A DNA stretch of 64,000 bases, from assembly GCA_950295325.1 (NCBI GenBank), contig OX485808.1, forward strand, positions 41,992,527-42,056,526, given 5' to 3'. The DNA comes from Polytrichum commune (taxonomy: Eukaryota > Streptophyta > Polytrichopsida > Polytrichales > Polytrichaceae). The notes beneath the pieces were generated by a model. That model was given only the letters and a program-made list of their open reading frames with translations. It did no database searches and had not been told where the DNA came from. Made by a program: the position numbers and the translations under genes. Shown here piece by piece: positions 18,717 through 42,833 of this stretch (position 1 is the stretch's first letter; each line of letters opens with the position of its first letter).

Positions 18717-21700
18717 GCCGGTTAATTTCTTCTTCATTGTAATGACGACCAGCCAAGAACTTGGGTATTGATAAGTAAGCCATGCCTCCAATGTAGCAAA
18801 ATTATGAATAGCAATAAAGAAGCAAAAGCTTCGCTTATTTGCCATTCACCAAATCGCTACAAGCCTACAATGCACAAATAACCTAAACCCTAGAACCAGA
18901 TGATATTGTGTAGATGAATCAAACCGGATGAAATTTGCCTATTTCACAATTCATCCGGGTAAGAATCCTCCTCCTGAAAATGGTTGCCGGTTGAAATCCG
19001 TTGTGTTTTCAAAAGCACCGGTTTACACTAAATGCAGGTTGGACCCGGAGATTGGGATGCATGCCATTCAAGCAAGTTGAAGGTGAATTTCAAACGATTC
19101 AAAAACCCTTGTAGAGTCTTAAATGCCCCCATATGATCAACGCAATTTCTAATGACAGATGGGTGCTCGAAGATTGGTGCCATTGGAACATGTTTCGGTT
19201 CCTTCTCTTAAAAATAACACTTCTATTGAATAACTAAGTGCAGATCTACAAATAAACACCAATTTGAAAATCACATATTATATGTACTAGGCAAGATTGG
19301 ACCAAGTGCCCCAAACTTAAGTGTCACTTCCTATTTGGATTATACGAGGCTATATGTAGTGTCCAATAATTCTTTATGCAATAATTCTTTCCGTCCAATG
19401 TTCAAGTTTTGAAGTAAGCACACCTAGTTCAATTGCTCAACTTCAATAGACACCTATATTTGATAGGGTCTGTAGTCAAGTACGGATAAGTTGTTTGAAA
19501 AAGGGATTGAACTACATGCTTCATTTTTTCCAGAAGGTTCTAGGCCCTTTAATCAACATGCGGGGGTGGGGACAGTAATTCGATCATTTCAGAAGGAAAA
19601 AATATCTTCACTTTTGCATTGTATTAGATACATGTACAAGCTTCAAATATAATGAGGAAAACAATGATGGGCATGATATGGATTTGCTAATAATCTTGCA
19701 CTAATTGCGTATTGTAAGTACGACAGTATGTAGGGAGTAGAAGATAGTTAACATTTAGAGAGGCATGACAGTTATAGGTGTAACATTTATATCGTGACCG
19801 GTGGCCTGTAGTGGGTTCTGAATATATATCTATATTTCCCCTAATTTTAAGTTACGGAGCCCATTATAACCAACATATATCTTCACCATGACCGACAACA
19901 ACTATTTCGACCCTAAACCCTCCACTCCATAAGGTCCTCACGTCTATAATATACAAATATCGACTTCTCACGTTTACAATATCAATCTATCGACTTCTAG
20001 GGTTTGCCATGCGCGTTCATGCATCGGTCTACTTATCGGTGATGGGTGCGTTAATATCGGTTATGGGTGTCTATTGCCTCAAGCCTGCACGACGGTGTAA
20101 GGATGTTGAGTGTTCGTAGTACTACGCATAAGTTAAGGGCTCTTAATTGCAAGGTGTTACACTGTTGGTTATAACATAACAGTTGGTATGTATTTAATTT
20201 GTGGTATTGATTATAACATATTATGGTGAAAGTGGGTGTCGCAAGGGTTAGCCCTCCATCCCATATTAATATTGTGCACTTTCATAAGGCTACTAGTAGG
20301 CAAATTGAATCCGCTGGCAAGTCTTTCAGACCGTCTAGTTGTGCATGATCGTCGTCCTATTAATGGTTAGTGGTCTATAGACTGTGGTGCATATATGTCC
20401 CAACCCACTCTAGGTACACTAAATATGATATTTAGTGTTAGATACACAAAATACGAACGCATACACTAAATATTAGTAACCCTAGATGAAAGTAAGTAAC
20501 ATTAATTGTGAACTATATGAATTAATCCACATATTGCACACTATAAAATTAATGTTAAACGTGTTAACTGTTTACAAAATGGTACTCCCTTCTTTGTAAA
20601 TTTGACTCTATAAATGTTAACGAATGAAATACAACCATAATATTCCATCCTATGGTGACATACAATCTAGTTTTGGTACCATTAGAAGGTACATGGCTAC
20701 ACGTTCATGTGATGTGTCCAAGTATGTGGGTTTGTTCTTGGTGCAGATTGAGAAATATTTGGAAGTTGTGGAATCAATGCAAATGAATCTCACCAAAGGA
20801 CCATTGATTCATACTTCACCCGTGATTTGTAAACTTGTGTTTCAATATAATTATAGTTTTGATTGGGGATTGTAATTTTATGAACGGTATTCACCCACAA
20901 GGACTCTTAACAATTGCGTCTATTTACAAATGTGGAATTTTGTATATTGCTCAAAAAAGTAATTTTATAACTGTGTTATGTCAATGTTATGTTATGTTAA
21001 CATGTCATGTTATGTCAATATGACATTCAGATAAATTGGAGCACACCCTGTGGCCCTATTACTTATATCTCGCGCAACCAAGTGTGTCAAGTCAAGAAAG
21101 TTGCATCAAAATGTTGTACACACATACTTACTAGGCTAAGCAGGCTAACAAGGAATGATCATAATATAGTTGCATTTGACACTCTTCAAACTTTGTCCAT
21201 TTTTATTGAGAGCTATCAGTTTTTAACATCATCATGGTATCTACTAGGGTCATGCATAACATTCATTTGCAGATTTTGTCACTTGAAACCCTTTATTGAG
21301 TTGGATGAAGCGTGGCATTCAACAATTTGAATGCACTTTCTAAATTTGTAATTGCAAGACTTCATCCATATATTAATATGCTTTGACAAGTTTACTCCAC
21401 AAGTTTACTAGTAGGGTTTAGGGTACCCTAAACTTGAATCAGCATTGTTTGCTACCCCAAACAATACATTGTGCTCTATTAAACACTCCAAACAGTGGGT
21501 GCTCATGTGGATCATTAGCCCTAAGCCGATGTGGCATCACAATTTAACTTCTAATGAATGACATCGCTGGGTAAACGCCATTCATCGCTCAATATCACGA
21601 CACTTGATGAGTAACATAATTCCCTACATGCATAATACTAGCTTAAGGGTTGCCCCACACTTTTACGGTGACCATACAAAGAAGACTTAAATCACAAAGA

Positions 21701-21900: not shown

Positions 21901-24354
21901 ACCCAAACCCATACACAATGGATGTATAGTAGAACCCATGAATTACTCCATAAACAATATGTGGAGACATAGCATGAATTGCATAGCACACATGAAGAGC
22001 CATGATGACAGTGTTCTGTGGCAATGTACGGCCAGTACATCGGTTTAGTAACGAGCCGGCTGATAGTTTTGCGGTGATTTCCAATTGATTGTGGACTGAT
22101 TCGGGATGGGGTACCGTGACATGTGTATCATGTTGAGGTCGGAAACCTACCGATTCCAGCTGGCGAGTTGAGGGGACAACGACCAGTTGAGGGATTTACT
22201 TCATAGTCCAGGAATGTTACGAAGTCCACTTAGCCATTAGAGGCAAGTAGCCGAAGGGACTAGGGATAGGGCGGAAATGTTTCTAGTGTTCATAATCTTT
22301 AGTATAGTCAATATGACACCTTTGGGGAGCGCAGAAAGCCACCCTAAACCAGCTAAAATTCCTATTATGACAGGTGGTCTAGAATCTTCTAATCTGATAG
22401 TAGGGAATACAAACATGTAAGCAATATGTCATTGAGCTTAAAAACATATACAACTTGGTCAAACAATATAGATGGAATTTATAATATACATGTGACAATA
22501 TAGATTGAAGAGTTATAGGATCTATGGTGTTGCCTACCTAAGTTGTGAACTGTCATCTTATATTTTAAATTCCTTAATAGCGTTTGAAAACTAAAAAATT
22601 TATTAACACCAAAATGTAAAGAGTTGTCCGATTAAGAGTTACACAACAATGTATAATGACGTAACGCATCACTAGTAAGATTCACCGTAGGTGGTTGGTG
22701 TGAACATTATCATGATCCACATCTCTTCAATGCACATGAACATTGAGATGAAAGCCGTGTGCACGATTTCTCAATTTTGGGTCAGTAATCCCTTCCCCTT
22801 CCATCCGAATATAACTTAGTCTCGAATGACATCTAGTAATCATCATATTCAGGGGTTAGCTCCTAGTTCATATTTAATTTAGACAATTTTGGCTTGAGAA
22901 TGTTTCGATCCAATGGCATGATTATTATAGTATATGGCTTAGCCCTCCATCCCATAATGTGTCAGCTCTTGGACCTAACATAATATGAAACTATACATTG
23001 TGACCAAATTGAATGGTGGATCCGAAGCATTAATTTACCATTGTGAGCGGAACCCCTTGGAATGCCACACTGAAATTTCACATCAATACATTAATTGTCT
23101 TTCCTTATGAACACATTAATTTTAAATTATGTTGGAGATTGGGCTTGGTCCAATAATTAGATTTAGGCAGCTGTAGCCAGGGACCATTATATTAATTGGT
23201 AAAACAAACTAACAAATCACCTCATGTTTAGCACATTGTAAGCCTTTTGTGAGAAAATCCTGGCGTGCAAGGAATTTTCAGACATAGCACTTAATATGAA
23301 TAACTTGGAAGTTGAGGAACCTAGTAGGAAATTTGTAAATCCATATACAAATTGAATGTATTTGGGATCGTTTTTGTAATCGTAGCCTGAGTTGGGGTTT
23401 TTTTTTGGTTTCCCATTCATTGTAATTTGCTCAAAATGCAAACCAAAGTGGCACTTAGAGTGTAAGGGGTTTAGGGTTTAGGGTTTACGGTTTACGGTGA
23501 GGAGTAGGGTTGATGGGCCTCCGGAGGCTACTCAATCTTAACTAATATTTAACTCACACATCAACTTTTCGCCTATTGGTTACACTATTGGAGTCAATTT
23601 GTTTAGGGTACAAGGGTTTAGGGTCAATTTGAGACGGCATCCTCTAATGTTAGTTGGCGGCACAAATTTCGAATGTTAGTTGGAGGCACAATTTCCGAAT
23701 GTTTGTTTGTCAGAGCAAAATTGAAATTGTTGTTGATTCAGAAATGTGTTCTGTTTACGAAATACCCCAGAGATGTTGTTGATCACAAATGTTGTTGGTT
23801 TCACATTTGCAAACTTTAAGGTGACTAACCCAAACATCATGATCAAGGTTGCAAATACCAAGTATTACTCACCCGCCAAGTTAAAGCGATCATTATACCA
23901 CCGATAAGAAGCCAAATGAAAAGACGTCCAAGTGAGGACTCCGAGGCTAACCAATGAGGTTCATTGCCCTAGGTTACTAAGGCAGATGGTCCACAATCCA
24001 CTCAAATTTCAGTCTCAGATTGTCAATAAAGCACCTTTAACTCTGACCATATTAAATACAACCCAAAACCCTCAATAGCACAACGATCATCACAATTTTG
24101 TGACTTACCATTGAAAACGTCTGTCATTCTGAAATGGAACTCAAATTAGGATGTTTATTCTATAGCAGATTAGTTGATAGCACACCACTTTCACAAATTA
24201 TTCACATAACACTATATTCGTTAAATTGAGACTTTTTGGGCATTTTGAGACATTCACATAAATAAGAACAAGGATAAATGGAACACATATTGGAGAAAGT
24301 TGTAAGATGCGAACACTTTGAAGCAGGTGTTTAGACCAAGAACCCCATAAATAA
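21901..24354. other. Intergenic, no gene seen
   Basis: AT-rich DNA with short ORFs only. A degenerate TTTAGGG stretch lies at about 23460–23490. No recognisable transposon ends or coding exons were found. Confidence 0.45.
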
Positions 24355-24640
24355 CTCATATTTGTGATGGTTTAGGGTGGGCAATCCAAATCTTAGACCA
24401 CATTTAAGGGGAAACCTTAAAACATTCATATTATTGCACACAAAATATTAGAGCTTGTATGAATATGGTTTAGGTAGGGCAATCCAAACCATAGATCTTA
24501 TTGAAGGGTTAATATGTTAACCAATATAATATTGCATACAAAATATTCCAAACTCATATTTGTGATGGTTTAGGTAGGGCAATCCAAACCTTAGACCATA
24601 TGGAAGGGGAAATCATGTCTAACTTGTATTATTGCAAAAA
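24355..24640. repeat. About 100-bp tandem repeat, three copies
   Basis: Three imperfect copies, each with a GATGGTTTAGG–GGGCAATCCAAA–TTAGACC core, begin near 24365, 24462 and 24563. They lie just downstream of the minus-strand exons that end at 24794. Confidence 0.6.
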
Positions 24641-24793
24641 AAAAACATACAAAGTGTGGCATGTAAAATGCATATCATGCTAACACCACACATGCATTGG
24701 ATAGTGCGACCCAAAATGTTCTTGCCTATGGCCCAAAACCCTACGCCTACTATGGCCTATCTAGCCTCGGATACTACCTCTTTTTCTTTTGCT

Positions 24794-25566
24794 TCATTTT
24801 CTTTTGTTTTTTTTTTCTTTTGCCTCTTTTTCTTTTGCTGCAGCTTCTTTTGCTCGCATTGCTTCAACATTCCTGAAAATCTCCGCCCCGCGACTATAGC
24901 CATTCTTGGGGTGAACGCCATCAATAACACATTTTGTATTCCGTCGGCCGCCCGAATTATACGACGAAGAATTCGAATACGATGAAGTGGACTGTCTTGC
25001 ATTTCTGGTCATGGAGTAGAAACGCTCCAACTCGATGGACGCACTAGACCGCATAGGTTTACGGGTGGGAGCAACCTGCAACGCGTCAACGCAAGAACAC
25101 ATGTGTTAGTTTAGGGAGGAAGACCCAAACGTGTCACACATTCATTTTTTAAGTGCAAAATGATTGTAATGCGCGGATAACCATGTTTTTTTTGGGGGGG
25201 GGGGGGGTTCACCTTGTCACCGGGGGCGTTCCCGTCGGAGTTGGCGAGGAGGGGCAAGGCATCCCACAAAGGAATAGGAAGGGTTCCACTCTTCGTAGGC
25301 CGAGCGTCCATCCGCAGCCGCCGTTGAGGTGTACTACTGCCGCCGGGCCGAGAGGGGGATGTCCGGACGCATTTGCGATTTATGCCTTTGAGCGGTGACG
25401 GGGACGCAGATCGCCGGAAGATTTGCTTGGGTGGGGGGCTATCGACGACGCCGGCGTCAAGAGGCTCCTTGGAGTAGTCGATGGTTGACGCGGCGTCGTA
25501 AACGGTCTCGTAGAAGAAGCTCCCCAAGTCTGACTCGCTGACGACGTCAATCGAGGGCTCCAAACG
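24794..25566 (-). CDS. Hypothetical protein, two visible exons (no start found)
   Basis: Two exons with consistent phase can be drawn: 25566–25213 after a CTCCAG acceptor and before an AAG/GTGAAC donor, and 25075–24794 after a TTGCAG acceptor. The first encodes LEPSIDVVSESDLGSFFYET and a Ser/Pro/Arg-rich middle; the second has a Ser/Tyr/Asn-rich stretch and ends in a Lys/Glu/Ala helix (EAAAKEKEAKEKKNKRK, then stop). I recognise no family. The exons lie directly downstream of the HAD-like exon on the same strand. They may be a separate gene whose 5' part is not visible, or alternative 3' exons of the ParB–methyltransferase gene. The intron contains a run of 14 G on the plus strand. Confidence 0.4.
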
Positions 25567-25709
25567 CTGGAGCCAAAATTGGAACAAAACAAAACCCAAG
25601 GAAAAGGGGGGAGATAGAGCGCGTGAAAATCAAGATACATATGAAGCGTAAATTACACAAAATGGGTAGGCGCATATACACACACACACATACAAACACA
25701 CGTACTGTC

Positions 25710-26522
25710 TCAAATGAGCTTGTTAAATTTCGCGTGAGATAACAACTCTCTGTACAAATGGTCTCGTGGATCCAAGTATCTCTCGCCTATGGGATTATTC
25801 CTAACAAAATTGTTTACGGGAAGTCCGCTTCCCCAGAGCGCCTGGAGGTATTTACTAAGGTCTAACAAAAATCGGTCCCGGACCTTCTCGACCGTCCACG
25901 TAGGGCACACTATGAAGTTGGCCGTCGGGTTCAACATGTTCTTTGCGGCGCTGTCGTCCACCATGAGCGTGTTCTCGCGGGTGGGGCGGACGTCGTAGGG
26001 GACGCCTATCAAGGACGGTCGCTGGTCCCAAAAAATGGGCTTCAAGACCTTGAGGTATTGGGGGGAAGCGGGGTTGTTTGGTTTTTTGACGACTTTGCCG
26101 TCCTGTGTGTACAATATTCTACAGGCTTCCTGTGCTAGGACCATGCAGGGGGGCTCGATGCCCTTGAAGATGAACTCCACGACCGCATTGGTGTTCTCGG
26201 CCGTCATGGAGCTCCACACGACCACCCACCATCGTTGTTGGGCGATCTGGAGGAAGGTCCGAAGCCACGGGCGGAGGTGAACTAGTTTGCTCTTTATGAA
26301 CGTGGGCGGCCCGTCGTAATTAGCGTCCTCGGGCTTGCAAAAGGGCACCGTGGGGGTCCTAGGGCAATGAACGCATTGGACGAGGACCCCGTTCAGGTCT
26401 AACACCAGGAATCGTTTCTTCGGCAGCGGGGGCGGGGCGGGTAAAACCGGGGGCGCCGCCGCGCTGCCCTCTCCGCTCCTTGGGGAAGAGCGTCGGGGAG
26501 CCGCTACGCTATGCTCCGAGCC
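25710..26522 (-). CDS. FCP1-like HAD phosphatase domain exon
   Basis: An exon of 270 codons after a strong acceptor (TATCCGCAG/GGC), ending in a stop at 25710. After a Pro/Ala-rich leader it has the HAD motif FLVLDLNGVLVQ (Asp at exon residue 42, with Asn where the second Asp usually stands), then WWVVVWSSMTAEN (motif II), a Lys in KVLKPIFWDQ and NTLMVDDSAAKNMLNP (motifs III/IV). This pattern matches the plant FCP1/NIF-like phosphatase family that keeps LDLNG. There is no in-frame ATG between the acceptor and the domain. The phase fits the donor at 27024 of the upstream ParB–methyltransferase exon. I therefore infer it is the last exon of that gene, giving a fusion of about 1,650 residues. 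With Asn replacing the general acid, activity is doubtful. A separate gene with a non-ATG or distant start is the alternative. Confidence 0.65.
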   Translation of the reverse strand, partial: GSEHSVAAPRRSSPRSGEGSAAAPPVLPAPPPLPKKRFLVLDLNGVLVQCVHCPRTPTVPFCKPEDANYDGPPTFIKSKLVHLRPWLRTFLQIAQQRWWVVVWSSMTAENTNAVVEFIFKGIEPPCMVLAQEACRILYTQDGKVVKKPNNPASPQYLKVLKPIFWDQRPSLIGVPYDVRPTRENTLMVDDSAAKNMLNPTANFIVCPTWTVEKVRDRFLLDLSKYLQALWGSGLPVNNFVRNNPIGERYLDPRDHLYRELLSHAKFNKLI

Positions 26523-27024
26523 CTGCGGATACGAGCGAGAGAAAACGGGGGCGACTTATGTCATGCTATGTCCAAACGAAGCATTAAGGAAACGAGCGTT
26601 CTCGGTGCAAACACAAAAGCATTTGATTCATTTTGGAGGGGGTGCAACAAGGGATACAAGGGATACAAGAGCATACAAAATACATTCAAACACAATATAC
26701 AAGTATATAGGAGTCAAAAATGGCGATTATATTATATACAATGCTCTATGTACATCTTGATTGGGGGAGCCGCGTTGAACGATGCGTTCAAACTAGCCTA
26801 CTTCTACATCTAGAAAAAATTGAAGAGACGGGCCGCCGTGATGAAGACTTCGTTGCAAAGCCGGGGGTAGGTGGACGAACGAATGGTCGCTGGGGGTGAC
26901 GAAGGGCGCGAGTGCCGGGGGGGGCCTAAGTTCGTCCTAGCTAGGGGACACGACCAAGGCAAGAAGTCAAAGACCCAGGAAGTTTGGGTCGGCCGACCCA
27001 AACTGAGTGGGGTCAGTGCATTAC
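26523..27024 (-). other. Probable intron between gene A exon 3 and the HAD exon
   Basis: A 502-base stretch bounded by a minus-strand GTAATG donor at 27024 and a TCCGCAG acceptor ending at 26523, both in phase 0. It contains one perfect copy of the TTTGGGTCG palindrome (26983–27002). Short ORFs inside have no family features. Confidence 0.5.
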
Positions 27025-27375
27025 CTCGCCTTGGTCGTGCCTTGACGACGTTGATGCCGGCATCGCGTGCGCTGCCCCACCTCTGTCGCCGCCGCCTCCG
27101 ACGACGCCGTCAGCCGCAACCTGCTCCTGCAAAGGCTGACTGTCAGGCCTTTGTCCCAACCCAACCTCCGCATGCGCATCATGCATTGGTTCATCGACTG
27201 GGTTAGGAGTAGAGGTATCACCAGGCCCTTGCGGGCCTTCAACATCTAGCATAGGCTCGTCGACCGGGGTCTGATGGGGGACGGGGTTTGGGTCGGCCGA
27301 CCCAAACCCTGCTGCTTGGCGAGGGTCGCTCTGCGACGCTGCAACGTCGGCACTGTTTGGGTCGGACGACCCAAA
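26983..27375. repeat. Three TTTGGGTCG palindromes, two inside coding exon
   Basis: Palindromes of the form TTTGGGTCGNNCGACCCAAA occur at 26983–27002 (centre GC), 27287–27306 (GC) and 27356–27375 (GA). The last two lie in gene A exon 3, where in the frame after the G10 run they encode FGSADPN and FGSSDPN. Seven codons (21 bases) keep the frame open, so the palindrome has entered coding sequence without adding a stop. Confidence 0.9.
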
Positions 27376-30300
27376 CATGTGGGGGTCGTCCCGCTGGTGG
27401 TGTGGGGGCAAGAGGATGGGAGGCCGGAGCGGGGGGGGGGTGCCAACGAGCTGGACGCTCCGGGGACGCGCCAAAGGTTTGGATCATCCACCTGCTGCAC
27501 AGGCGCGTAAGGACGGGCGTGCGGCTGCAGCAAATCCGCGAAGCTGAAGGAATGCTCCAACGCCGGCCGCGGGCGGATATCCTGTGGAGGGAAGCCTGCC
27601 GGCAAGTGAGGGAATGAACTCGGGGGAGCCATCACCAATCCCTGCGCCAGCATGCCCTGGATCACTTGCGTGATGAGGTCCGCTTGGGACGGAGTTTGGG
27701 ACATCGCCCTTTGCCGCTCCTGCTCCAACAGGAGAGCCCTCAACTCCGCGACTTCGTTGCGGACAGAGGGTTCCTCGGCGGCAGCCCTCTGCAGTCGCAC
27801 ACGCTGCTCCTCGTCTCGGAGCATTTTTGCGTTCGCCTCCTCCACGGTGAGGACCTCCGGTTTCACCCTCACATTCCCGGCGAACGCTCTGGGGGAGGCA
27901 GGATCAGACCTCAGCTTCTTGGCGAGTTCCATGTCGTCCTCGTCCTCGGAGCTTATTGCGATCGTCTCCTCCACCGCATAGTCCCCGTACAGCTTCTTCC
28001 CCTTCATCCTTCTACGCTCCCTGAAGGTGGCCGTCGCGTCCCTCGAGTACATATCCTTGGCGTCGTCCACCGTCAACGCGGGCACCAGCCTGCTCTGCGG
28101 CGTGGCAGGCCGCATGGCCTTCTTCCACTGAGGGGCCTCGGATTCTTGAGTGAATCCTGTTGCCCCTTCCTCCACCTCCCCCTCCACTTTCTCTGCTTCC
28201 TCCTCCGCCTCCTCCTCGTCTTCCTCCCCCTCCTCCCCAACCCTGCCACCTGCTCCCATAGACGGATTGCCCGGATGCAACCCGATGAGCGGCTCTGGCA
28301 ATTGAACGGGGGCCCGCATGGCGAATTCACCCGGGTTGATTCGCCTCGCAATATCCAAAGGATTCTCGCCCCCCTCGACGATCTCTTCGACGTAGGATCC
28401 GGGTATCCAGTCGAGGATGTCCATTCTCTTGGCCAGCGCCTTTTGGGTCCTGTAGAATTGAACATCGGCATCCTCTACATAGGAGTAGATGTTCAACCCA
28501 GACATCTGCACAATCAAAATCAATACTATTAGTAACACCAAATGAACATATAATGGAAAATGACTTCCAAACAAAATAAGAATAGTTAGTTTGGGTCGCT
28601 CGACCCAAACTGTGCATGCCCCTAGTTTGGGTCGTTCGACCCAAACCGAACGTATAGGGACTTCTGGGTTTTCTGCTTACCATGGCTGCAAAAATCGGTT
28701 TGGACCCCCCGAAAACGTTGAAGATGCAGTCCCCTCTCTTCGTGAGGGTCCTCATCATCCGCAGGTAGAACTCCATGCGCAGCTCATCCGCGGGGTAGTT
28801 GGCGTACTTCGCCTCGTCATATAAGCTCCTGCTGGTACCCAACCCTTCTTGGACTTGGAAGAGCTTTTCCATCCTGGCTATGGGATGGTTTGGCACCTTA
28901 AGCAGCTCAGCTTTGTACACGAAGTACAAACACAACACGTTGACGATCTTCGTCTTCTTGTCTTTCAGCGTGCTGTACGCCCCCTCCGCCGGTGCAGCAA
29001 CGTAGTGAGATTTCGAGACGGCATACTCCGGCTGCAATTTGCGCACGATCTCGTAAACCTGCTCTGCCCTTCTGTCCTCGACAATCCAGAGCCAGACGTC
29101 GACCTCCCTGAATTTGGGGCTGGCGTAGTCCACGAACTTCGACAAGAAAGGATCGTAAAAAGGGGTGCTCATAGTCCCCTCGAATGAGGCTCCAGGGATG
29201 TTCCTGAAGTCTATCATTCCGAAGGGGAAGCGGTCCCCGGCTCTAGTCCTGATCGCCTTCCTTGACTCAGAACCCGGCCAACCCTGGATCCTGAGAGGTT
29301 CGACAATGACCATGTTGAATTGCGCATCGCCTTCGAAACTGACGATCTTCTTCTCCTTTATGAAGTTGGAGAAGGCCCGCACTGAGTGTTCGGGAAGCGC
29401 CCGGTTCCTCCCCCCCTTCACGAGCTTGGATCTGAGGAAGTCGTCTCCCGCCTCCCTCATGAGTGCCGCCATGGACGCACTGGTAAACTTATATTCGGCT
29501 TTGAAGGCCCTCCAGTGCGCCTCGTCGACCTCTCCGTCCACGATGAGCTTCTTCTCTGGCACAAGCTTGTGCAGCTCCTGGACGATGGTCGTCTTCTTCT
29601 TCCTGTTCTCCGTCCATTCCTTCATTGTGTAGCATGAAGGGACGAAGATCTTGGGTTTGGTGAAGACGATCTTAGGGTGGACCCAGCATCTCTTCGCCGT
29701 CGTCTCCACGTGTAGGATGTGGGACGCCGCTTTTCCCATCTCTGTCTCGGAGAGACCTTGAAGCGCTCTGAAGAACTCCCTCACCAGAGGCTTCATTTTC
29801 TTGAAGCGCGTAGTCTGGTTGAAGAGCATGCCGGTGTCGGGGTCCATGAGGTCCCCCGTCTCGTGTTTTTCAAAAACACTCTTCCATCTTGCCCATACGG
29901 AATCGGACGCTGTGATCAAATAGATTTCTCCTCTCAGCTCGTTATACTTTTTCTGCTTGTGGCTAGCATTGTCGATCGAGGAGAATTTATTGATCATTTG
30001 ATATTTGAAGTCCTGCACAGGAAGACATTAGCACATGTTAGACAACACATAATGGAAAAACAAATGCAACAGCAGTTTGGGTCGAACGACCCAAACTATG
30101 AACCTGGCGAAAACATCTTAACAATTTCAGAGTTTGGGTCGACCGACCCAAACTATGAACCTGGGGACAATATCAAAATAATTTCAGAGTTTGGGTCGAC
30201 CGACCCAAACTATCAACCTGGTGATGACAACAAAACAATGTAGGAGTTTGGGTCGATCGACCCAAACATACTCACCTCCCATTTGGGGTTCTTGTCTTTA

Positions 30301-31601
30301 GCATTCTCCCTTTCCTTGGGAGGCCTTCCATAAAACTCCCACACCTCCCTCGAGGCCATGATGTTTCTGATCCACGATGCCTGATAGGCCCTCTTTTTGT
30401 TCCCCATGTTGAAGAACCTGGAGATGTCGCTGAGGACCGTCTCGTTGTCCGACCAAACCACCAAAGCCTTCCAAACTTTTAGCTTCTCCTTCTGGTTGTT
30501 CGGGTCGTCCCACTCGGTCATCAGCTGGATTTTTTTCGAGGCCTCCACACTGTGCTGCCCGTCAATCAGCCAGAAGTCTCCTTTAGAGATTGCCGGCCAC
30601 ATCTCAGGCGTCGGCATTCTTTTCAGCCCTTGTGGCATGACAACAATTGTCTGCCTGTTGTCCTTGAACTGCCCGCCCAAGATTTGAGCGACCATCCAGT
30701 CGACGTAGGCGTCCTCCTTGGCTCGGACGCACTTCTCTGGTGGCGCAAGGTGGCACTGCGCAATGTTGACCTCGAATTTGAAGTCCCTGCCCATGAAGAA
30801 GCAGTGCAGGCATTTTGTCTCGAAGTTGTTGTTTATTTTTTGTATTTCGCCTGCATCCACCTCTTGGCCAGGCTTCGGCATCCGGAGCTCCGGGGAAACA
30901 GGCTCGTCAGTCATCCCCGATGACTCTCTTCCCCTCTTGGAAGGGGTCGTCTGACGGCTTCCTGATGGCGTTGGCGTCTCGCTGTCAGCCGGCGTTGTTG
31001 TAGTGCTCGTCCGTCTCGAGTCTGCAGGGACCGCCCGCGGTTTCCTCACAGTTTGTGGTCTTGAGGACCCTGCGCCTTCTTCCGTCGTTGCCTTCCGCCT
31101 CACAGGCTGCTGCGTCTTGGGTTTGCTTTGCAGCGCCTTGTTGAGAACCGTGATAGCCTGTTTTAACTTCGTGAACCTGCTCGCAACCTTCGTGTTCGTT
31201 ACACTACCATCTATGAATATGGCCTCCGGTTTTATGGTTTCAGGGTCGACGCAAGTCTCCTTGGCGTACAGGGGGTCGAAGGGCTCCGAGAACTGGTGCA
31301 TGAACATGTGGACGTTCTGCACGGCGGAGTTCTCCAGTATCACGTCTACGTAGTCCCCGAGAGACTGGACGGACGCAACCTCCCATCCCGTCAGCGTTGC
31401 CCAGGTGTGCTGCTCGTGGGTCCCCACCTTCACCACGAATAGCAGCTTGAACATGGATGCCTTCACCACCTGAACGGACCATGCCAAAACGACGCCATCT
31501 TTTGGGACGTAAGAATCGTCCTGTGGAGTTTCATACTCCTGCCAAAGGTGGTCTGGCGCGAGCATGAACCACCTTTCACCTGGTCTCTTTTTAGGGGCCA
31601 T
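27025..31601 (-). CDS. Gene A: ParB/Srx-like domain fused to beta-class DNA methyltransferase-like domain
   Basis: Three phase-0 exons: 31601–30276, 30012–28681 and 28505–27025, with donors GAG/GTGAGT, ATG/GTAAGC and GAG/GTAATG. Exon 1 (442 residues) has a basic Ser/Thr linker at 160–245, then Cys/His residues and a ParB/sulfiredoxin-like fold with FWLIDGQHSVEASKK (DGQHS at 347–351). Exon 2 (444 residues) carries features of the N4/N6 DNA methyltransferase beta class in the order IV then I: NMVIVEPLR (exon residues 233–241) in place of the DPPY motif, a VDVWLWIVEDRR strand, then RTLTKRGDCIFNVFGGSKPI (motif I) with YVEDADVQF beyond the intron (motif II). The catalytic DPPY and motif I Asp are not conserved, so the enzyme may be altered or inactive. 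Exon 3 is acidic and disordered. A run of 10 G (27431–27440) shifts the frame; coding continues in another frame to the donor, suggesting a homopolymer error or a real lesion. The ATG lies immediately after an acceptor (GATTGCAG), so a 5' leader exon lies upstream. Confidence 0.75.
28590..28645. repeat. Two TTTGGGTCG palindromes in gene A intron 2
   Basis: Copies at 28590–28609 (centre CT) and 28626–28645 (centre TT) lie in the 175-base intron 28506–28680, which separates methyltransferase motif I from motif II of gene A. Both are perfect in the 9-base arms. Confidence 0.9.
30076..30266. repeat. Four TTTGGGTCG palindromes in gene A intron 1
   Basis: Copies at 30076 (centre AA), 30133 (AC), 30190 (AC) and 30247 (AT), each 20 bases, spaced 57 bp apart inside the 263-base intron 30013–30275. 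The intervening sequence (AACTATGAACCTGG…) is also repeated, so this is a 57-bp tandem array. The last palindrome starts four bases after the GTGAGT donor. Confidence 0.92.
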
Positions 31602-31629
31602 CTGCAATCCAAGAAATCGAAACTGTGAG

Positions 31630-32566
31630 TTTCGGTCGATCGACCCAAAGTATTGCAATGTGCATTTAACATTTGGAGGATTGACCCAAACATTTACTTA
31701 ATTTTCAAAGTCGTTTTAAAAGATCTTTTAGATTTTAAAGTGTGGTTTAGGTGGTCACCCTGTAATGTTTGGGTCGAGCGATCCAAACATGATGAGGCTG
31801 CAAATTTAGGTATCTCAACACATTCATTTCAGACTGCAATGTTTGGGTCGAACGACCCAAACAATTACTTAATTTTGGAAGTTCTTTTATATTTTACAAT
31901 GTGGTTTAGTTCTTCTCCCTGTAATGTTTGGGTCGAGCGACCCAAATATGTTAGGCTGCAAATTTAGGTAGCTCAACCCATTCATTTCAGACTGCAATGT
32001 TTGGGTCGAACGACCCAAACAATTACTTAATTTTCAAATTTCTCTTTTATTTTACAATGTGCTTTAGTTCTTCTCCCTGTAATGTTTGGGTCGACCGACC
32101 GAAACATGTTAGGTTGTAAATTTAGGTAGCTCAACCCAATCATTTCAGACTGCAATGTTTGGGTCGAACGACCCAAACATTCACTTAATTTTCAAAGTTC
32201 TTTTATATTTTACAATGTGGTTTAGTTCTTCTCCCTGTAATGTTTGGGTCGAGCGACCCAAACATGTTAGGCTGCAAATTTAGGTACCTCAACCCAGTCA
32301 TTTCAGTCTGCAATGTTTGGGTCGAACGACCCAAACATTTACTTAATTTTTGAAGTTCTTTTATATTTTACAATGTGGTTTAGTTCTTCTCCCTGTAATG
32401 TTTGGGTCGAGCGACCCAAACATAATGAGGCTCCAATGTTTGGGTCGCTCGACCCAAACAAGAGGCTGCAATGTTTGGGTCGAACGACCCAAACATTTAG
32501 TTCATTTTAGGCTGCAATTCAAATATTTATTATATTTTAATATGAGTTTGGGTCGTCTCCCCAAAC
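31630..32566. repeat. 158-bp tandem array with paired palindromes upstream of gene A
   Basis: Five units of 158 bp, each with two palindromes. One series has centre AG (31768, 31927, 32243, 32401, with AC at 32085) and the other has centre AA (31842, 32000, 32158, 32316, 32474). Extra copies are at 31630 (one mismatch), 32439 (centre CT) and a decayed copy at 32547. The arms stay almost invariant while the AT-rich spacer varies slightly. The array ends about 165 bp upstream of the gene A start codon and ahead of its splice acceptor. Its position suggests a 5' leader intron or promoter. Confidence 0.93.
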
Positions 32567-35450
32567 TACTGTGTTTCCAGATGCATGTTTAATGCTTGGG
32601 CAACATATACAATGCTTATGCATTGTATATGTAACAGGAACCTAAAGGGAATGATGCAAATTGTGTGCACTGATGCAAATTGCTTACCTTGTCTTTCAAA
32701 CTCTTGAAAGCTGCTCTCACAATCTGCTTCTTACAACCAGACTCAGAAACTCTGTTGTGGCACTAAAGAACAACTCTCACAAAGATCTCAGAAACACAAT
32801 GAATCTCTCAAGCACCCTAAAACTTTCTCACAAACCCCCTGATTCTTGCAAACTCAGGCCTAATTTGAAAGACCTCTACCTTTCTATCACACTCGACCGT
32901 GCTCACAGAAACTCAACCTAAAATCACTCCATGCATGAATTTTACAAAACAAGTAAGGAGTTCAACACAATAAACCGCTCCGAACTCACTCAAAGCTAAC
33001 ACTCTGGACCAAGAAGAGAGAATAAGAAGAGGAAGACAATAACACGAGGAATAGAATGAGAGAAGAGGAGGAGAAGCATCAGAGAGGAGGAGAGGAATGA
33101 AGGAGAAAGAAGAATGAAGGGAAGCGGCGCGACCAAGACAAAAGTAAAAGGTGCGAGAGGAAGCGCTTGGCGCGGCGCTATGGAAAGCGGCGGCGGCGTT
33201 TCCAAGAGCGGTGCTTGGCGCGGAGGAAGAGAGGAAGAAAAAGAGAGAAAGAAAAAAGAGGAAGGGAGAGAAGGAGAGAGCGGAAGGGGTCACCCTAAAC
33301 CCTCGAATCCGGGCCATTAGATTGCGCCGGGCCCATCAACGGCTCAGAAGCCTCGCGGGCCAACACCTTGCCAGGTGTCGACACCTCCTTGGTTTAGGTG
33401 GTTGCCCGCGAGGCTTGTGGTGTTGACACCTGCCACCCTAGGGAGATTGCCTTCCTGGTTGTCCTTGCCCCTAGGTGCGGGACATAGGAGGGCCGGCGCC
33501 TCTCTTGGCCGCCCGGCCCCGGCCTTCTAACCCGCTATTCATTAGCGGCAATTCAATACCAGTCAAAAACCTACGTGGACTAAGGTATTCCACAAAATTA
33601 ACACCATCACCAACTCATATTTTAATGGTGTTCAATTGAATGATCACCCGTTGGAATTGATAACATCGTTGAATGTAGCCATTATCGTTTTGGTGTATGA
33701 ATAATGTAATTTATGGAATCATATGAGAGTGTTACAAAGTCTAAGAGGAGTAAGTCATAATTATATTGCAATCCACAAAGGCAATTACACGGTGCAATAA
33801 TATAAATATGGTAACCATTCACATGGTTAACAGTTTAGGATTATGTATTGTAATTTATATGATGGTTGTTGGTTGAGGACAATGCTCTAGTCTATAATGG
33901 ATACCCTAACAAGTAGCATTAGAGTGAACATTAATATATGTACTTAGAAGTTCACATTTGAAGTACATGGGAGAAACAAATGATTACAAATGTATCTACT
34001 GCAACCCCATGGAGTTCACATATCATATGAAGTCATTTAAACATTCAGTTTGATGTTTGATGATGCCTGAACCCTAAACCCTAAACCCTAAACCCTAAAC
34101 CTTAAACAACACAAACCATAACTGGATGGCACATAGGTCAAATGACATGGGCCTTGGTGCTTGTAGTTTCCAATACAAATGTATATTGTCATCACAACAT
34201 CCTAATTCACAAACGTGAAAGATGGATGTGTGGTTTTTCACGAATGAACGCACTAAAGGAAATAAACGATATTGTGCTCACAAGTAGGTGATACAATATT
34301 AACCTATAACCTTGTCACCTGGTAAGAAAAGCATAAGAACTAGATTATAATGGATAGGATGTTGTTCATGTTAACATGTTATTTGGAATAGTGAAATATT
34401 ATATATTAATTTAAAGTAGATTTCATGTTGTGAATGATACGAGGACATACCTTTTGAACTTTGCATGTTTTGCTCACACACATTGGTAGAGTTCAAGGGA
34501 CTTCACGATAGGTTCAAACATCCTTGGAAGATTGAACGTGCCAAATGTCATTTGTGGTTTAGGGTTCCATTAATGACTTCCACATAGGTACTAGGTTATT
34601 GTCACACTTGGAGTCTTGAGGATGAAGCAATATTGGGTGCACACATTACAACACAACATATGTTCTTTTAATTAGCAGAAATTGAAAGTTGGCCAAATTA
34701 TTCAAGTTTGTCATGGCATTAATTATTTGTTTTCAAAATATAAGTCCTCATGTGAGAGTCTAAATAATAGCATTAACTATTATATTTAGTGACTTTTAGT
34801 ATATGAAGTTTTATAATACATGCACATCTTTTGTCAATATATTGTTTGAAATATACCATAATGTTTGACTACAAGTAGAGTAAAACCCCTTAATAGATAT
34901 AATCTTACATATTGTCATAGGGTTATTGGTATTTAGTGTATGCGTTCATATGTAGTGTATCAAAACCTTTATATCCTTTTTAGTTATATGATAGTTAGTG
35001 TTTGATACACTTAAAACGAACGCATACACTTCCCATTACTAACCCTATGAGAGTAAGTAACATTAAATGTAAACTCAAACACTAAATATCCACTATGGTG
35101 ATATATGGAAGTTACATATAGGGATTTAGTATTAGTAAGGATGTGAGAAAAATATACAACAATGATAAAAGGAGAAAGGAGATGGCAATAGGGAAGGTGG
35201 TGGTGTATTCATGTATAAAACTAATTATGAAAGAGTTGAAGAATAGTGTTGACCAAGTTAGGGTGGTAACAACTTTAAATATATGTTGAATTATTCATTT
35301 GGTGGTTGGGGCAACGAAGAGCCAAGCTAAATATACATTATCTATTATTGACAAGAAGCGGGAAATTGAGTCAGAAGGTTTGAATTAACATCCAAAGGAG
35401 ACCAGGTGGGAAAGGCATCCAAAGAGGATGCCCAAAGCGGAGGCGGGTAG
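32567..35450. other. Intergenic core between divergent genes A and P1
   Basis: No coding gene is recognised. 32990–33300 is purine-rich on the plus strand, hence a pyrimidine-rich candidate leader for gene A on the minus strand; it produces spurious ORFs. At 33348–33360 and 33404–33416 are perfect 13-bp inverted arms (AAGCCTCGCGGGC), enclosing the palindrome AGGTGTCGACACCT (33373–33386). A telomere-like CCCTAAA run is at about 34075–34105, and a copy of the ACTAAATAT-type dispersed repeat at 34930–35090. Confidence 0.5.
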
Positions 35451-35457
35451 TATAAAG
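35451..35457 (+). promoter_or_regulatory. Candidate TATA box for P1
   Basis: TATAAAG preceded by a GC-rich stretch (GGCGGGTAG) and followed by a pyrimidine-rich segment, a typical plant core promoter layout. It lies 1.4 kb upstream of the P1 start codon. The palindrome array and a splice acceptor sit in between, which fits a 5' leader intron. No transcript evidence is available. Confidence 0.4.
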
Positions 35458-35672
35458 AGCCCAACCCCCCCAAATGCTGGTTCTTTCTTTCATGTCCCAA
35501 TCCTGAGATTGCTGCAAGCTCTCTAAGTTGGAGCTGTAATACACGGTTTGTATACGCTTCCATTCATGAGCAGCTAATTACAACAAGCATCTATGAGTTC
35601 AGTTGTCCCAAATAGGTTATAAATAGATTAATAGAGCATCACCCGAATAAATAGGCGGATTTTGCGGAATTG

Positions 35673-36628
35673 TTTGGGTCGGTCGACCCAAACCCAGCCT
35701 TACAGTGTGGGTGCTCTCTGTATTGAGCCAGAACCCATCCTGCCTCAAGGTTTGGGTCGATCGACCCAAACCCAGCCCTACAGTGTGGGTGCTCACTGTT
35801 GTGAGCCTGAACCCATCCTGCCTCATGGTTTGGGTCGATCGACCCAAACCCAGCCCTACAGTGTGGGTGCTCACTGTTGTGAGCCTGAACCCATCCTGCC
35901 TCATGGTTTGGGTCGATCGACCCAAACCCAGCCCTACAGTGTGGGTGCTCACTGTTGTGAGCCTGAACCCATCCTGCCTCATGGTTTGGGTCGGTCGACC
36001 CAAACCCAGCCTTACAGTGTGGGTGCTCTCTGTTGTGAGCCTGAACCCATCCTGCCTCATGGTTTGGGTCGATCGACCCAAACCCAGCCCTACAGTGTGG
36101 GTGCTCACTGTTGTGAGCCTGAACCCATCCTGCCTCATGGTTTGGGTCGGTCGACCCAAACCCAGCCTTACAGTGTGGGTGCTCTTTGTTGTGAGCCTGA
36201 ACCCATCCTGCCTCAAGGTTTGGGTCGATCGACCCAAACCCAGCCCTACAGTGTGGGTGCTCATTGTTGTGAGCCTGAACCCATCCTGCCTCATGGTTTG
36301 GGTCGATCGACCCAAACCTAGCCCTACACTGTGGGTGCTCACTGTTGTGAGCCTGAACCCATCCTGCAAAAAGGTTTGGGTCGCTCAACCCAAACCCAGC
36401 CCTCTAAGTGTGGGTGCTCCCTGTCGTGACCCAAAACCAATTTCCCAAAAGGTTTGGGTCGCTCGACCCAAACCCAACCCCTAAGTGTGGATGCTGTCTG
36501 TAGTGAGTCTAAATCCATCCTGCCAGAAGGTTTGGGTCGCTCGACCCAAATCCAGCGCCTAAGTGTGGGTGCTCTCTGTATTGAGCCTGAACCCATCCTC
36601 CCAAAAGGTTTGGGTCGCTCGATCCAAA
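35673..36628. repeat. 78-bp tandem array of 13 TTTGGGTCG palindromes upstream of P1
   Basis: Thirteen units at an exact 78-bp period (starts 35673, 35751, 35829, 35907, 35985, 36063, 36141, 36219, 36297, 36375, 36453, 36531, 36609). Each has one 20-base palindrome; centres are AT or GT in the first nine and CT in the last four. Copies 10 and 13 have a mismatch in one arm. Since 78 is divisible by three, the array is open in all frames on both strands for about 220–260 codons; these ORFs are by-products. It ends 215 bp before the P1 ATG. Confidence 0.95.
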
Positions 36629-36842
36629 CCCAGCCTCTAAGTGTGGTTGGGATCTGGGTGCCGGTGTGGCCACTGGCTTTCCGAAACCTTTACAAGCCCA
36701 ATGGCATAGCAGTCATATGAACTTGTATGAGCACTGAGTATTTGCAATTTTGTTTATATATGATGGTTTTTTTGTTCTTCGATTTGAACCTACAATTTTT
36801 GTGATTTTAAGACAATGTTCAATGTTCATGTGTGTAGGCAGA

Positions 36843-39800
36843 ATGGATGGGTTTAGTGAAATAGGGGATTGGTCATCTGATGACATGGCCACTTGGCCAT
36901 CTGCATCTGATGATGACCTAGACATTGTCGGGGAGGCTACTATGGCTGACAGTGCGGATGAAGATCATTTGGATTTACCTTCGTCTTCCGTACCGCAGTG
37001 TCCCATTGTTGAATGTACGGGACTTTCAAGGGCTTCGTGGGTGAATTTGGAGGTGATACTTCTTAACGATAGTGGAGTTGTTGTGGCGGAGGGGATTTGC
37101 CGTAACACCCATCCGCAAGATTGCATTGATGAAAACCCGCTTGGCACTGAGGACGTTGGGGTTGTCATATTGGAGTCGGTCGTTCATTCCGAGGTGGATC
37201 CCACTCATAGGTTCTCCCTCCGCAGGTGGCCATTGAGGAATGTCACAATTGATGGAGTTAGCTTGCGTGAACATGAGCAACAACACATGCAAATCGAAAA
37301 GGAGGTGCAATCAAACATGCGGCCGCGCAAGGGTCAAAGAAAGTACGATACATTGGCACGTCCTGCTCCGTCTGCAACTGATTGTAAACGTCAAAGGTTG
37401 CTCGGGGAGGAGTCCATTAGAGAAGTTGCCACAAAGGATTGTTGTGTGCATCGTTGTTGCCAATTGTTTCCAAGGGATAAATTGAAGGTCATCCGCGAAG
37501 AAATGTGGCTTGGAGATTTCCGTCTAAGATCCACAAGAAAACTTGATGTCCATAGGGCGATACATGTGAATGGGACGGGTCGCAAGGTCATCACCATTGA
37601 AAGCATAGACGTGTGTTGTAAGGCATGGTACACCATTCACGGTGTGTCGAAATCGGACTTTTATAGACAAGCTGCTTATGCCAAGGAAGGCCGCCGGTCC
37701 CGTCACCATGGTAACGTGGGTTTAAAGAAGCCTAGGGAAGCAACAAGGCAAGCAACGGCCACTCTAGCAACCATCATTGTCCCTCTTGCCGATGCAATGC
37801 CGCACAAAACACGCACACTCACAACCGGTGAAAAGGTTGTGGAGAAAGTTCTTCCCACAGGCACAAAATGGAAAGACATATTGTTGGACGTTAATGCAGT
37901 TGGCGAGAAGATTGGGTTGGAGCCAATTTCATTGTCAAAATTGAGTGCAATCAAGAAACAAAACTTTAGCGAATACATTACAAAAAGACGAGGGGACAAA
38001 TTTGCCAGGTGCTCTAATTGCGAGAAGTTGAAGCGCCTCCGGGATGCACACACGATGGGCACCGAGTCATATGCAGCGCATCAATTGAACTATTTCAAGC
38101 ACGTAAACATGCAAGAGGCACACCGTAATGATTACTACACAAATAGAGCTTTGTCCATCTCCAGGCCCTTGGAGGTTCTTACGGTCATCCATGACAAAAT
38201 GGACCATGCCAAAACAGCCTCCCCATGTTTTGCAAATCGAATCAAGGCCACGGATGGGTTTTTCAAGTTGCATGTATCGGTTACAGGTGAACTTCGAAAC
38301 AATGTCATGACATACCCTAAATGTTGTTGTATTTTATTCCGTGATGTACTGGAGAACATGGATTCCTTCATAATGGTTTATTCATACATAGATGCTAATC
38401 ACGTTGGGTTGGCATTGCAGGAATGATTGCACATGGACACGGTGATGTCAAATTTGCTCATTATGCTCTTGATTTGTATCCAGCGGATTCAAACCACACG
38501 ATAGGATCATTTGCAAGGCTTTTACGTGATTTAGAGAAACCACCAGCCTATTCTTCAGGATTGTTATTTGAAAACTCGGGTTCAACACCTTTATATGAAG
38601 CGGTGTTGGATGGAAAAGATGTATGCTTGCATTCGTTGCCCGAGCCACCCAATGAACCCGTGATTGCCAAGAAGTTGCCTCCAACTTTGCGTGTCCAATT
38701 GGACAATTGTGCCAAGGACAATAAAAGCAGATATGTATTTGCATATTGGTCGTTGTTGGTTGCGAAAGGCATTTTCAAGGAGGTTTTTGTGTCCTTCCTA
38801 TTGGTAGGCCACACGCACGATGATATTGATGCATCTTTTGGGCGGTGGAGCATGAAGTTGCGGGAGGAGGATTTCCCTACAATTCCATTATTGATGAAGT
38901 CGTACATGGATTTGGAGAACGTTCCCGTCATCCCACATATGATTGAGGAGGTGCCAGACTTCAAGGCATTTATAGAACCTTATATTCGAAGTGGAGCTCA
39001 CCGATTGATCGGGCATACGAAGGCACAACAATTCCGCTTCTATATGCGTGACGATGGTGTCCCGGCCATGCAATACAAGTTGTTGTGCACGTCACAAGAC
39101 TGGAGCCCGCCGGAGGGTCTTCTTGTGTGGCGCGTGGATGCGGATGGAAAGACCATGTTACCGGATGGGGAGCCTAGGCCTTGTAAGCCAATAGCCATGA
39201 AGAATTTGGAGGATATTTTGAAAGGTATATCAGGCTTCATACAATATTGGGAGAGTTTGAAAATAGCGGATGTTGGCGGATCATGTTGGCATCGTTATGG
39301 GAGTTGGATACATTATTGGACACGTGTTCGTGCCGCCTTGGCAGACCTCCACCAAGATAGCCCTCATACTTTGAGGCATGGATTTTGGCCACAAACACGA
39401 GTCGATGTACAAGCTTCAGAGCCTAGTCTTTTGGGAAATGGAGAGGTTCGAGAGGAGTTTGATGTGGACGACCATTACGTGGGGCCTGCTAGTAGTCGTC
39501 CCCCACCATCTTTCCGCATTGCAGTGGATTGTCATGAAGGTTATATGCTCATTTTGCGTCTTGGAGACGAGACATATGCGAAGCCAGTGTGGGTGGCAAG
39601 AGCTTTGTCCAATCCCAATTTTGTAACTTCCAGCCCTCATTTTCGACAAATACAAGTGGAGTACTATCGACCGACAGCAAGGAATGAAGATGTGATTCGG
39701 CATTATACAGGCTGGGATACAAACCCTAACTTTCGGTGGAAGGTGGATTCTGAGCACGGTCCATCTTGGGTAGATACAGATTCCATATTCATAGCATGGA

Positions 39801-39907
39801 AACCACGGAAACACCATAGTGGATCAGTGTCCATCCCTCAAAAGTACATAACTTTTGCAAAAGACAACCTTGCTCGGATTGCAGAAGAAGCAACCCACGT
39901 TGAATGA
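36843..39907 (+). CDS. P1: DUF7869-like protein, putative RNase H-like nuclease/transposase
   Basis: Two exons (36843–38286 and 38421–39907) give 976 residues. The 134-base intron has a GT–AG pair and splits the codon in VTG/MIAHGHG exactly where the paralogue P2 reads through. The ATG follows a TGTGTAG acceptor by six bases. Features in order are an acidic Ser-rich N-terminus; CCVHRCCQLFPRD and ARCSNCEKL (Cys pairs); VIHDKMDHAKTASP (about 448–461); VQLDNCAKDNK (about 574–584); and VGHTHDDIDASFGRWS (about 610–625). The last blocks match what I recall of DUF7869, found in uncharacterised plant and invertebrate proteins. Spaced acidic residues at 451/454, 576 and 615/618 look like an RNase H-type D–D–D/E set, which is inference. 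No stop or frameshift is seen, so it may be active. It lies divergently from gene A with palindrome arrays between them. Confidence 0.8.
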
Positions 39908-41597
39908 GAAGTTGGTAGGATTGTGTTAGCATGATTATAGTTTAATACGTAATTATAGCAATATAAATTACACATATGTGTGCTCTTCAAAATTGGGGCA
40001 GAGTTTGGGTAGAACTTACGAATACTATATTGTTTGGAGTTGGATGAATATCCATTTACTATATTTCAAGCTGCAATTGAAGTTCATCTTATTATTGTGC
40101 TTGGGACTATATTCTCGAATGAAGAAACATGCATTTATTACATGCACTTTGTATGTTGCAATGTCTATATTCTATTGAACATGCTAATAATAGAAATCAT
40201 TTTATATATATTTTTGGGTGAAACTTGTTTGAAGTGCTCTACCCAATGTGTTTTTGTTGATGAAGTTGGTGTCGAGTGCTCTACCATATGTGCTTATGTC
40301 CGCACATCATAGATTTGGGATATTAGAACATATAATATAATTGAGATTGTTGACAATATAGTTTCGGGCCTCTTCAAGTTCTTTGATCCATATATTAATT
40401 TGAGACTAGAGAAAGTCTCAATTTAACGAATATAGTGTTACATTCAACTAATTGAATGTAATTACGTGTAAATAACCTTAACTAATCTCAATAAATAAGA
40501 AAGTATGCTTCACATATTGCATGTAAAACAATTAACACTAGCAAATTGATGTTTATCTATAAATCAGACCATCACAACCGGGTCATCTGTAACCCGCGTT
40601 TGGCAGTCATGGATTACGATTTAGCAACGAGAACCACAAAAAATCAAAATTGAAAGTAATACCCCTGTGGAAAATAGTGGTTGTTCGCACCTATATCCCC
40701 ATTTTTTTAACACACTGAGTGAACCCAGAGATGTTATTGTGTTGTGACATGGCCCGAGCTCGTTGAATTGGGTGAACCCAAAATTATGGGCCAAACCTTG
40801 GCGTAGGGGCCAATTGAATGTCATATTTCACATCAAAACAAAATCCTTACATCTAGTATCGTTTATAGCGAACTAGATCCATTGGATTATGTGGAAATTT
40901 ATACTACTCTTTCCCAAATTAGTTCTTGAACATTTGGGTCACTGAATTGGCCTACCCTCTAGAAATGTTAACCATCGGGATCGCCACAACATTTATAGAG
41001 GTGTTAACAGCTAACAATTATTATAAAATTATTATTATTTTGAACCCTATAAAAATCTTAACATTTATAAAGCTAACAAATAAACAACAAAATCACATTA
41101 TATGTAGGCAAGCTTGGACCAAGTGCCGCAAACTTAATTGTGATTTTAGTCCCCTTCGTCAAATGTTACGATATTGGGGGGTGTTCAATAATTCCCTTTT
41201 TGCTTGGGAACATTGTACGCGCCTCAATAGCAGGGTATGATGCCCAAGTGTGATGGCAGTGGTGGGCCGAGGGTACCAATGGATAGGAATTACCAATTCA
41301 GGCGTGTTTTCATCCCATCAATCCAACTTGGATCCAAAGGCGTACCAGCGGGTAGTACGCGCTCATAGTGGTGATGCCCAAGAGTGGGCGATGTGCTAAG
41401 TATCATTACAGGATTGGGGGTGGACCGGATTGGCAAAATTTCCCACGTTCACAATTGCATGATGTGCATGTAAATACCCACCAAAAGGCATCAAAAGCCG
41501 TCCTTCCGCCGGAGCTGTGACGGCCTAAAACGACAGGGAGGGAACCTTCAAATTTGTATTAGGGCACTATTCTCCCACCAAATCTGCTACACCCGTC
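39908..41597. other. Intergenic between P1 and P2, no gene seen
   Basis: AT-rich DNA after the P1 stop. The block 41090–41230 repeats 19260–19400. ORFs of about 65–105 codons have no recognisable features. Confidence 0.45.
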
Positions 41598-42688: not shown

Positions 42689-42833
42689 TTCATTGGCAGG
42701 CTGCTTGTGCTGGCAGCCAACATAGTGCGAGTGCAAGCTCTAATATGATTAAATAGCAGATTGTACGTGAAGCTATATGAAGGCAAAGTTGTAGCCCTGA
42801 CTGCGCAAGTGTTTTTGTGCAGATTTGCGGAGA

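Follow-up and report, generated by a model that had tools for sequence, protein, structure and literature searches.

The DNA considered here, referred to as the window, is a stretch of 64,000 nucleotides from Polytrichum commune (assembly GCA_950295325.1, contig OX485808.1, positions 41,992,527-42,056,526). It contains a 16.2-kb DNA transposon with terminal inverted repeats, lodged in a plant genome, which encodes a candidate transposase of the DUF7869 family and, on the opposite strand, an accessory protein with predicted ParB/Noc-like, degenerate beta-class methyltransferase-like and NIF/HAD-type domains, and which carries dozens of copies of a palindrome, nearly all of them in noncoding DNA. 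The original prediction, which concerned the accessory gene, had not recorded the inverted repeats, the transposase gene or the palindromes. The features of the element are as follows, in window positions.

24204..24207, unstranded: left target site duplication, ACAT, flanking the window copy
24208..40439, unstranded: whole transposable element, 16,232 bp, delimited by a left edge common to independent copies, the inverted repeats and an empty site
24208..24235, plus strand: left terminal inverted repeat, AACACTATATTCGTTAAATTGAGACTTT, matching the right end at 28/28 bases
24794..25566, minus strand: two more coding-like stretches 3' of the HAD exon (an alternative end or a separate small gene), with similar frames in both divergent families described below
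25710..26522, minus strand: exon 4, NIF/FCP1-type HAD phosphatase domain (PF03031, E 3.2e-15, 56.6 bits against a cut-off of 21.8)
26523..27024, minus strand: intron 3, with one palindrome (26983)
27025..28505, minus strand: exon 3, probably carrying the last part of the methyltransferase fold, followed by an acidic and Pro/Ser-rich linker, with two palindromes
28506..28680, minus strand: intron 2, with two palindromes
28681..30012, minus strand: exon 2, 444 amino acids, a helical region (1-225) and a predicted beta-class amino-methyltransferase fold (226-444)
30013..30275, minus strand: intron 1, with four palindromes
30276..31601, minus strand: exon 1, 442 amino acids, an ordered N-terminal part (about 11-160, weakly PH/PTB-like), a disordered linker and a predicted ParB/Noc-like domain (about 274-404)
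31630..32493, unstranded: palindrome array of 12 sites, within and next to 158-bp repeats, just 5' of the exon 1 ATG
35673..36628, unstranded: palindrome array in 78-bp repeats, just 5' of the DUF7869 frames, 13 sites
36738..39907, plus strand: candidate transposase gene of the DUF7869 family, in two frames that overlap, the second matching PF25273 at E 1.1e-42
40412..40439, minus strand: right terminal inverted repeat
40440..40443, unstranded: right target site duplication, ACAT, flanking the window copy
Within the element: the candidate target palindrome, a 22-bp site also written GTTTGGGTCGATCGACCCAAAC

Element boundaries, insertion and copies

The length of the element follows from its ends, because the first 28 bases recur inverted, and perfectly, at 40412-40439. 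The left edge, at window 24207-24208, is common to nine of the ten further copies that were retrieved from this genome, the tenth (C3_42M) beginning only at the equivalent of position 26000. A copy's own matching 4-bp duplication was seen by eye at both ends in eight of the ten, a count that leaves out C3_42M and also C5_45M, for which the slices read did not reveal a right end. Direct proof of the insertion comes from a related locus on another contig, which is free of the element and matches the joined window flanks, with one ACAT, at 79 of 80 bases; the element landed in a second DUF7869 element. A query with exon 2 gave at least 95 scored matches, the window's own included, at 91-100% amino-acid identity (1,235 candidates at first look), and by a hand count of these rows 69 of the 95 are without an internal stop and 26 have one. 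Copies are present on all seven large contigs, and TTTAGGG repeats, the plant type of telomere, were found at four of six sampled contig ends. An older, diverged relative adjoins the C5_45M copy (L017 high end, C5 near 45.73 Mb), with a left flank 76% identical and 7 motifs.

The accessory gene had been proposed to be either transposon-borne or domesticated. It is transposon-borne, lying inside a multi-copy element with inverted repeats and target duplications, and these features, together with the empty site, rule out a host or domesticated gene. The notion of an ordinary host gene or of bacterial contamination, which might be entertained because domains of the ParB and DNA methyltransferase kinds are usually prokaryotic, is virtually untenable: the number of copies and the empty site already refute it, and the apparent introns, the terminal structures, the copies on seven contigs and the plant-type telomere repeats also stand against it.

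DUF7869 is a protein family of no known function, and it is by the PF25273 match that its gene in the element is a candidate transposase. The two frames are probably joined by a short intron, although one trial splice did not succeed; the first, of 562 amino acids, is open in eight of ten fetched copies. We take the DUF7869 gene and the 4-bp duplication to argue against a Mutator element. The duplication matches in length that given for Sola2 in passages of PMC3627910; the element is at most a candidate member of Sola.

Coding status and predicted domains of the accessory gene

The peptides quoted in the original prediction are all found on the minus strand where they had been placed (FWLIDGQHSVEASKK in exon 1, RTLTKRGDCIFNVFGGSKPI in exon 2, FLVLDLNGVLVQ and NTLMVDDSAAKN in the last exon), and GT...AG signals are present at all three proposed junctions. 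From the sequence we infer that exons 1 to 4 are spliced together. The phase into the HAD exon had been said to fit; in the window this holds only for the frame after a run of ten C residues (27431-27440), because exon 3 is frame-shifted at that run. Among ten other copies the run is 7 to 15 long, and in four of them exon 3 is open with the HAD exon in phase. Two divergent families (L058 and L059), which are 82-86% identical in exons 1 and 2 and are partly decayed with broken frames, both have identical last residues of exon 3 and an identical start of the HAD exon, and the HAD part is therefore likely to be the C-terminal domain of the predicted protein. The identity of the HAD part to these families is 75.6 and 76.7%, with a stop codon in one of the two. 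A search with the joined exons returned three proteins, which neither prove nor disprove the splicing, because each reads through an in-frame intron, with the palindrome in the same introns.

Three stretches of exon 2, compared with the two divergent families at synonymous distances of 1.15-1.5, gave ratios of nonsynonymous to synonymous divergence (dN/dS) of 0.074, 0.071 and 0.064 with our own counting script. No exon 1 ratio is given against the window, because its synonymous sites are saturated. Between L058 and L059 themselves the ratios are higher (0.31 over 159 codons of exon 2 and 0.17 in exon 1), as is expected of dying copies. Relatives were found in other sequence sets at identities of 26-93%, and this range, together with the low exon 2 ratios against the divergent families, means that the coding is not a product of chance.

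Domain identities were evaluated by predicted structure and by alignments of relatives picked for spread and length, namely 23 of 49 exon 1 relatives (24 sequences with the window's) and 42 of 49 exon 2 relatives (43 sequences). The predicted structures show a ParB/Srx fold in exon 1 and a beta-class amino-methyltransferase fold in exon 2, which is a part of the original assignment that stood; profile matches, by whose absence the original prediction was to be refuted, were not significant for either domain against Pfam, NCBIfam or PDB sequences, and for exon 2 PF01555 in Pfam was not significant across the 43 sequences. The FCP1/NIF-type HAD domain, by comparison, is confirmed at profile level by PF03031, and the order of motif IV before motif I is as stated, that of beta-class methyltransferases. 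The end of the methyltransferase fold is placed in exon 3, as a probable assignment, by motif spacing. The models also suggest a prokaryotic ancestry for the gene. In the Foldseek viral library there was no match at E 0.001 or better, the weak matches including several amino-methyltransferases and, at rank 19, ParB/Sulfiredoxin; relatives of exon 2 were not found in IMG/VR (single-sequence query) or among annotated phages (best E 0.7), searches in which exon 1 was not included.

The description of the methyltransferase part as an enzyme is not supported. The predicted fold is nearest to M.BceJIV, then CcrM, RsrI, PvuII and MTA1, and part of motif I (F-G-G) is retained; both points favour a catalytically active protein, one that would mark the element by N6A or N4C methylation of DNA, as has been suggested for the algal relatives, namely for Ectocarpus Sola1, in the passages of PMC12477816. 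The motifs themselves are altered, motif IV reading IDFRN and motif I FGGSK: a DPPY-type motif IV is present in 0 of 43 sequences, which mostly have DFRN instead (with the D kept in 42), and F.G.G occurs anywhere in exon 2 in only 2 of 43, K standing at the last G and 2 of 43 having no coverage of motif I. Activity of this kind is accordingly regarded as quite improbable.

The palindrome and its possible readers

The window holds 34 sites with at most one mismatch to TTTGGGTCGNNCGACCCAAA, 29 of them perfect and all within the element, as is a 35th at 24696 with three mismatches. Besides the two arrays, seven sites lie in introns 1-3 and two in the linker of exon 3, and there are none in exons 1, 2 or 4 or in the DUF7869 frames. 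Genome-wide there are 9,731 perfect palindromes of 20-22 bp, against 0 for a reversed control. Ten one-arm-mismatch palindromes (L038-L057) were inspected by eye, and in six the mismatch is C to T or G to A at one of the two CpGs, as would be expected if the sites are methylated in silenced copies.

Several observations bear on whether the palindromes are read by a protein at all, or are instead hairpin or small-RNA features, or passengers in expanding repeats. Most copies do lie within tandem repeats, and the two arrays vary from copy to copy (8-14 and 10-20 sites in the window and nine other copies). The copies in introns 1 and 2, however, remain intact while adjoining intron bases diverge: both sampled introns carry the palindrome in ten copies at 91-94% identity (20 slices), and in pairwise intron alignments with the two families whose synonymous sites are near saturation, 203 of 213 motif columns match compared with 372 of 532 other bases (gaps excluded), a contrast that is overstated because of the aligner's tendency to set motif against motif. 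Translations of the palindrome read through in frame were found in 32 of 101 fetched relatives (47 instances; in 200 shuffles, mean 0.005 and maximum 1). Since variation falls on the two central bases and both arms still match, a dimer suits the site better than a hairpin does, and an explanation with no protein reader appears very improbable.

If there is a reader, it could be the DUF7869 transposase or a host factor, using the sites for transposition or for its own regulation, while the ParB-like protein does something else. The second DUF7869 element (plus strand; gene at 42781-46012, PF25273 E 6.9e-40; array at 41973-42459) is the chief argument for this possibility. Its DUF7869 protein is 54% identical to that of the main element, and directly 5' of the transposase gene there are eight sites of type GTTTCACTCnnnnGAGTGAAAC, of which three are perfect for GTTTCACTCGATCGAGTGAAAC, a sequence with 20 perfect copies in the genome and 0 in the control. 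DUF7869 may be the palindrome reader because this element has an array and DUF7869 and, in the parts read, no detected ParB-like exon. Transposase sites would be expected in sub-terminal positions, where repeats serve the CACTA transposases; here the outermost 2.7 kb of the element on the left and 3.8 kb on the right are free of sites with two mismatches or fewer (the three-mismatch site is at 24696), and the ParB-like gene contains nine sites, in its introns 1-3 and in exon 3. A DUF7869 or host reader is on this evidence unlikely, though less so than the alternatives above. In sub-terminal repeats spaced by about 100 bp (24353-24643), a degraded sequence resembling the motif but not palindromic, GGTTTAGGTAGGGCAATCCAAACC, was seen by eye.

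The palindromes of the two elements are built on one frame, GTTTnnnTCGNNCGAnnnAAAC, and what distinguishes them is three bases in each arm, at the same positions (GGG versus CAC). The second element also holds a NIF/HAD frame (PF03031, E 3.9e-10, 31% identical), so that at least two of these elements have a domain of this kind; in its C2 copy the NIF/HAD frame and a Pro/Ser-rich frame lie on the minus strand (L071 2797-3642 and 4094-4813), in a stretch that is missing from the window copy by the BLAST rows.

The reading toward which we lean, by analogy and with slightly more confidence than doubt, is that the element recognises itself through its accessory protein, a sequence-specific factor. 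A dimer would read GTTTGGGTCGNNCGACCCAAAC with its ParB-like part and the helical part next to it, the portion resembling a methyltransferase would serve as a non-catalytic DNA-binding or dimer module, and the HAD part, which is FCP1-like and may act on RNA polymerase II or on chromatin factors, would thereby be brought to the two promoters and the introns. As a likely result the element's own genes would be de-silenced or autoregulated, as with VANC for VANDAL. A more specific version, which is doubtful but worth stating, is that plant transposons have captured ParB/parS-like logic of a bacterial type, such that a ParB-fold protein encoded by the element, whose methyltransferase clamp is dead and whose effector is a phosphatase, loads at dozens of self-specific palindromes, spreads over the element and keeps it transcribed, with protein and palindrome co-evolving and the address changed by three bases per arm (GGG to CAC).

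A number of results weigh against self-recognition by the accessory protein. Homology to ParB is not detected at profile level (Pfam ParBc is not significant across the 24 exon 1 sequences), the best Foldseek matches have E values of 2.3e-3 and 4.7e-3, with none at 0.001 or better, and the structure predicted for exon 1 is of modest quality (pTM 0.40; mean pLDDT 72 to 54 over five models). The nucleotide-binding signature of ParB, a GERRxR-like or GxRR-type motif, is not kept, DGQHSVEAS standing where it is expected; G.[RH]R occurs anywhere in exon 1 in 2 of 24 sequences and DGQHR in 0 of 24, with 3 of 24 lacking coverage of the region. A helix-turn-helix could not be assigned, and the helical half of exon 2 has no listed match. 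To these must be added the two palindromes in the coding sequence of exon 3 and the second element, for which no relative of exon 1 or exon 2 was detected in the 19 kb read or in the rest of the window.

What makes the proposal useful is that a candidate target can be named, a perfect palindrome of thousands of copies placed in the upstream regions and introns of the element. If the protein reads it, this would be a second, independently built system of sequence-specific anti-silencing or self-marking beside VANC; a prokaryotic fold would be the reader and a pseudo-methyltransferase a part of it, and how a transposon tells self from host would become testable.

The window also contains the following features outside the main element.

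3314-5071, minus strand: DUF247 plant gene (PF03140, E 1.4e-45)
7975-9135, minus strand: retroelement integrase fragment (rve, Integrase_H2C2)
15286-18795: long array of a 75-bp tandem repeat
54110-56034, plus strand: frame in which motifs like those of methyltransferases were seen by eye (LDWQCGVGS...GGSIIACRS; FADVPENLHVPG), with no Pfam match, possibly, from its sequence, a second and different transposon-borne methyltransferase

Comparison with known systems

In its fold, as predicted, and in the order of motif IV before motif I, the methyltransferase-like part resembles the beta-class amino-methyltransferases (M.BceJIV, CcrM, RsrI), from which it differs in having neither DPPY nor FxGxG. 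With bacterial ParB/Noc and parS the system has in common the fold of the core domain and a palindromic site, and the half-site of the second element, GTTTCAC, is, we believe, half of the common parS site TGTTTCACGTGAAACA. It is unlike bacterial parS in its 22-bp site with wider spacing, its changed nucleotide-binding signature and its eukaryotic-type introns.

VANDAL elements, which we take to be of Mutator type, encode VANC, a protein that to our knowledge has no known ParB or methyltransferase fold. The likeness to these Arabidopsis elements, as they are described in passages of PMC5735166, lies in a family-specific short motif in introns and upstream regions, expanded in tandem and variable in number between copies. 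For VANC, binding and loss of methylation have been demonstrated and the motif is a non-palindromic one of 9 bases (same passages), whereas here the site is palindromic, and binding and demethylation are proposed by analogy.

The nearest system is Sola1-1_Ec32 of Ectocarpus (Genome Biol 2025, PMC12477816, which cites Iyer 2011 and Petroll 2025), whose accessory ParB-methyltransferase gene is, in the passages available, suggested to bind its own element; a target motif for the protein is not mentioned in those passages. Both are giant DNA transposons with ParB-like and N4/N6 methyltransferase domains encoded on the strand opposite to the transposase. The present element differs in its host, in its DUF7869 candidate transposase, in the state of its catalytic motif, in the fused NIF/HAD part and in having a named candidate palindrome. 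The kind of gene is thus already known, an algal ParB-methyltransferase transposon gene being in print by the same passages, with green and red algal cases referred to other papers; what appears to be new here is the plant host with TTTAGGG telomeres, the loss of the catalytic motif, the HAD fusion, the purifying selection that was measured and the candidate target sequence.
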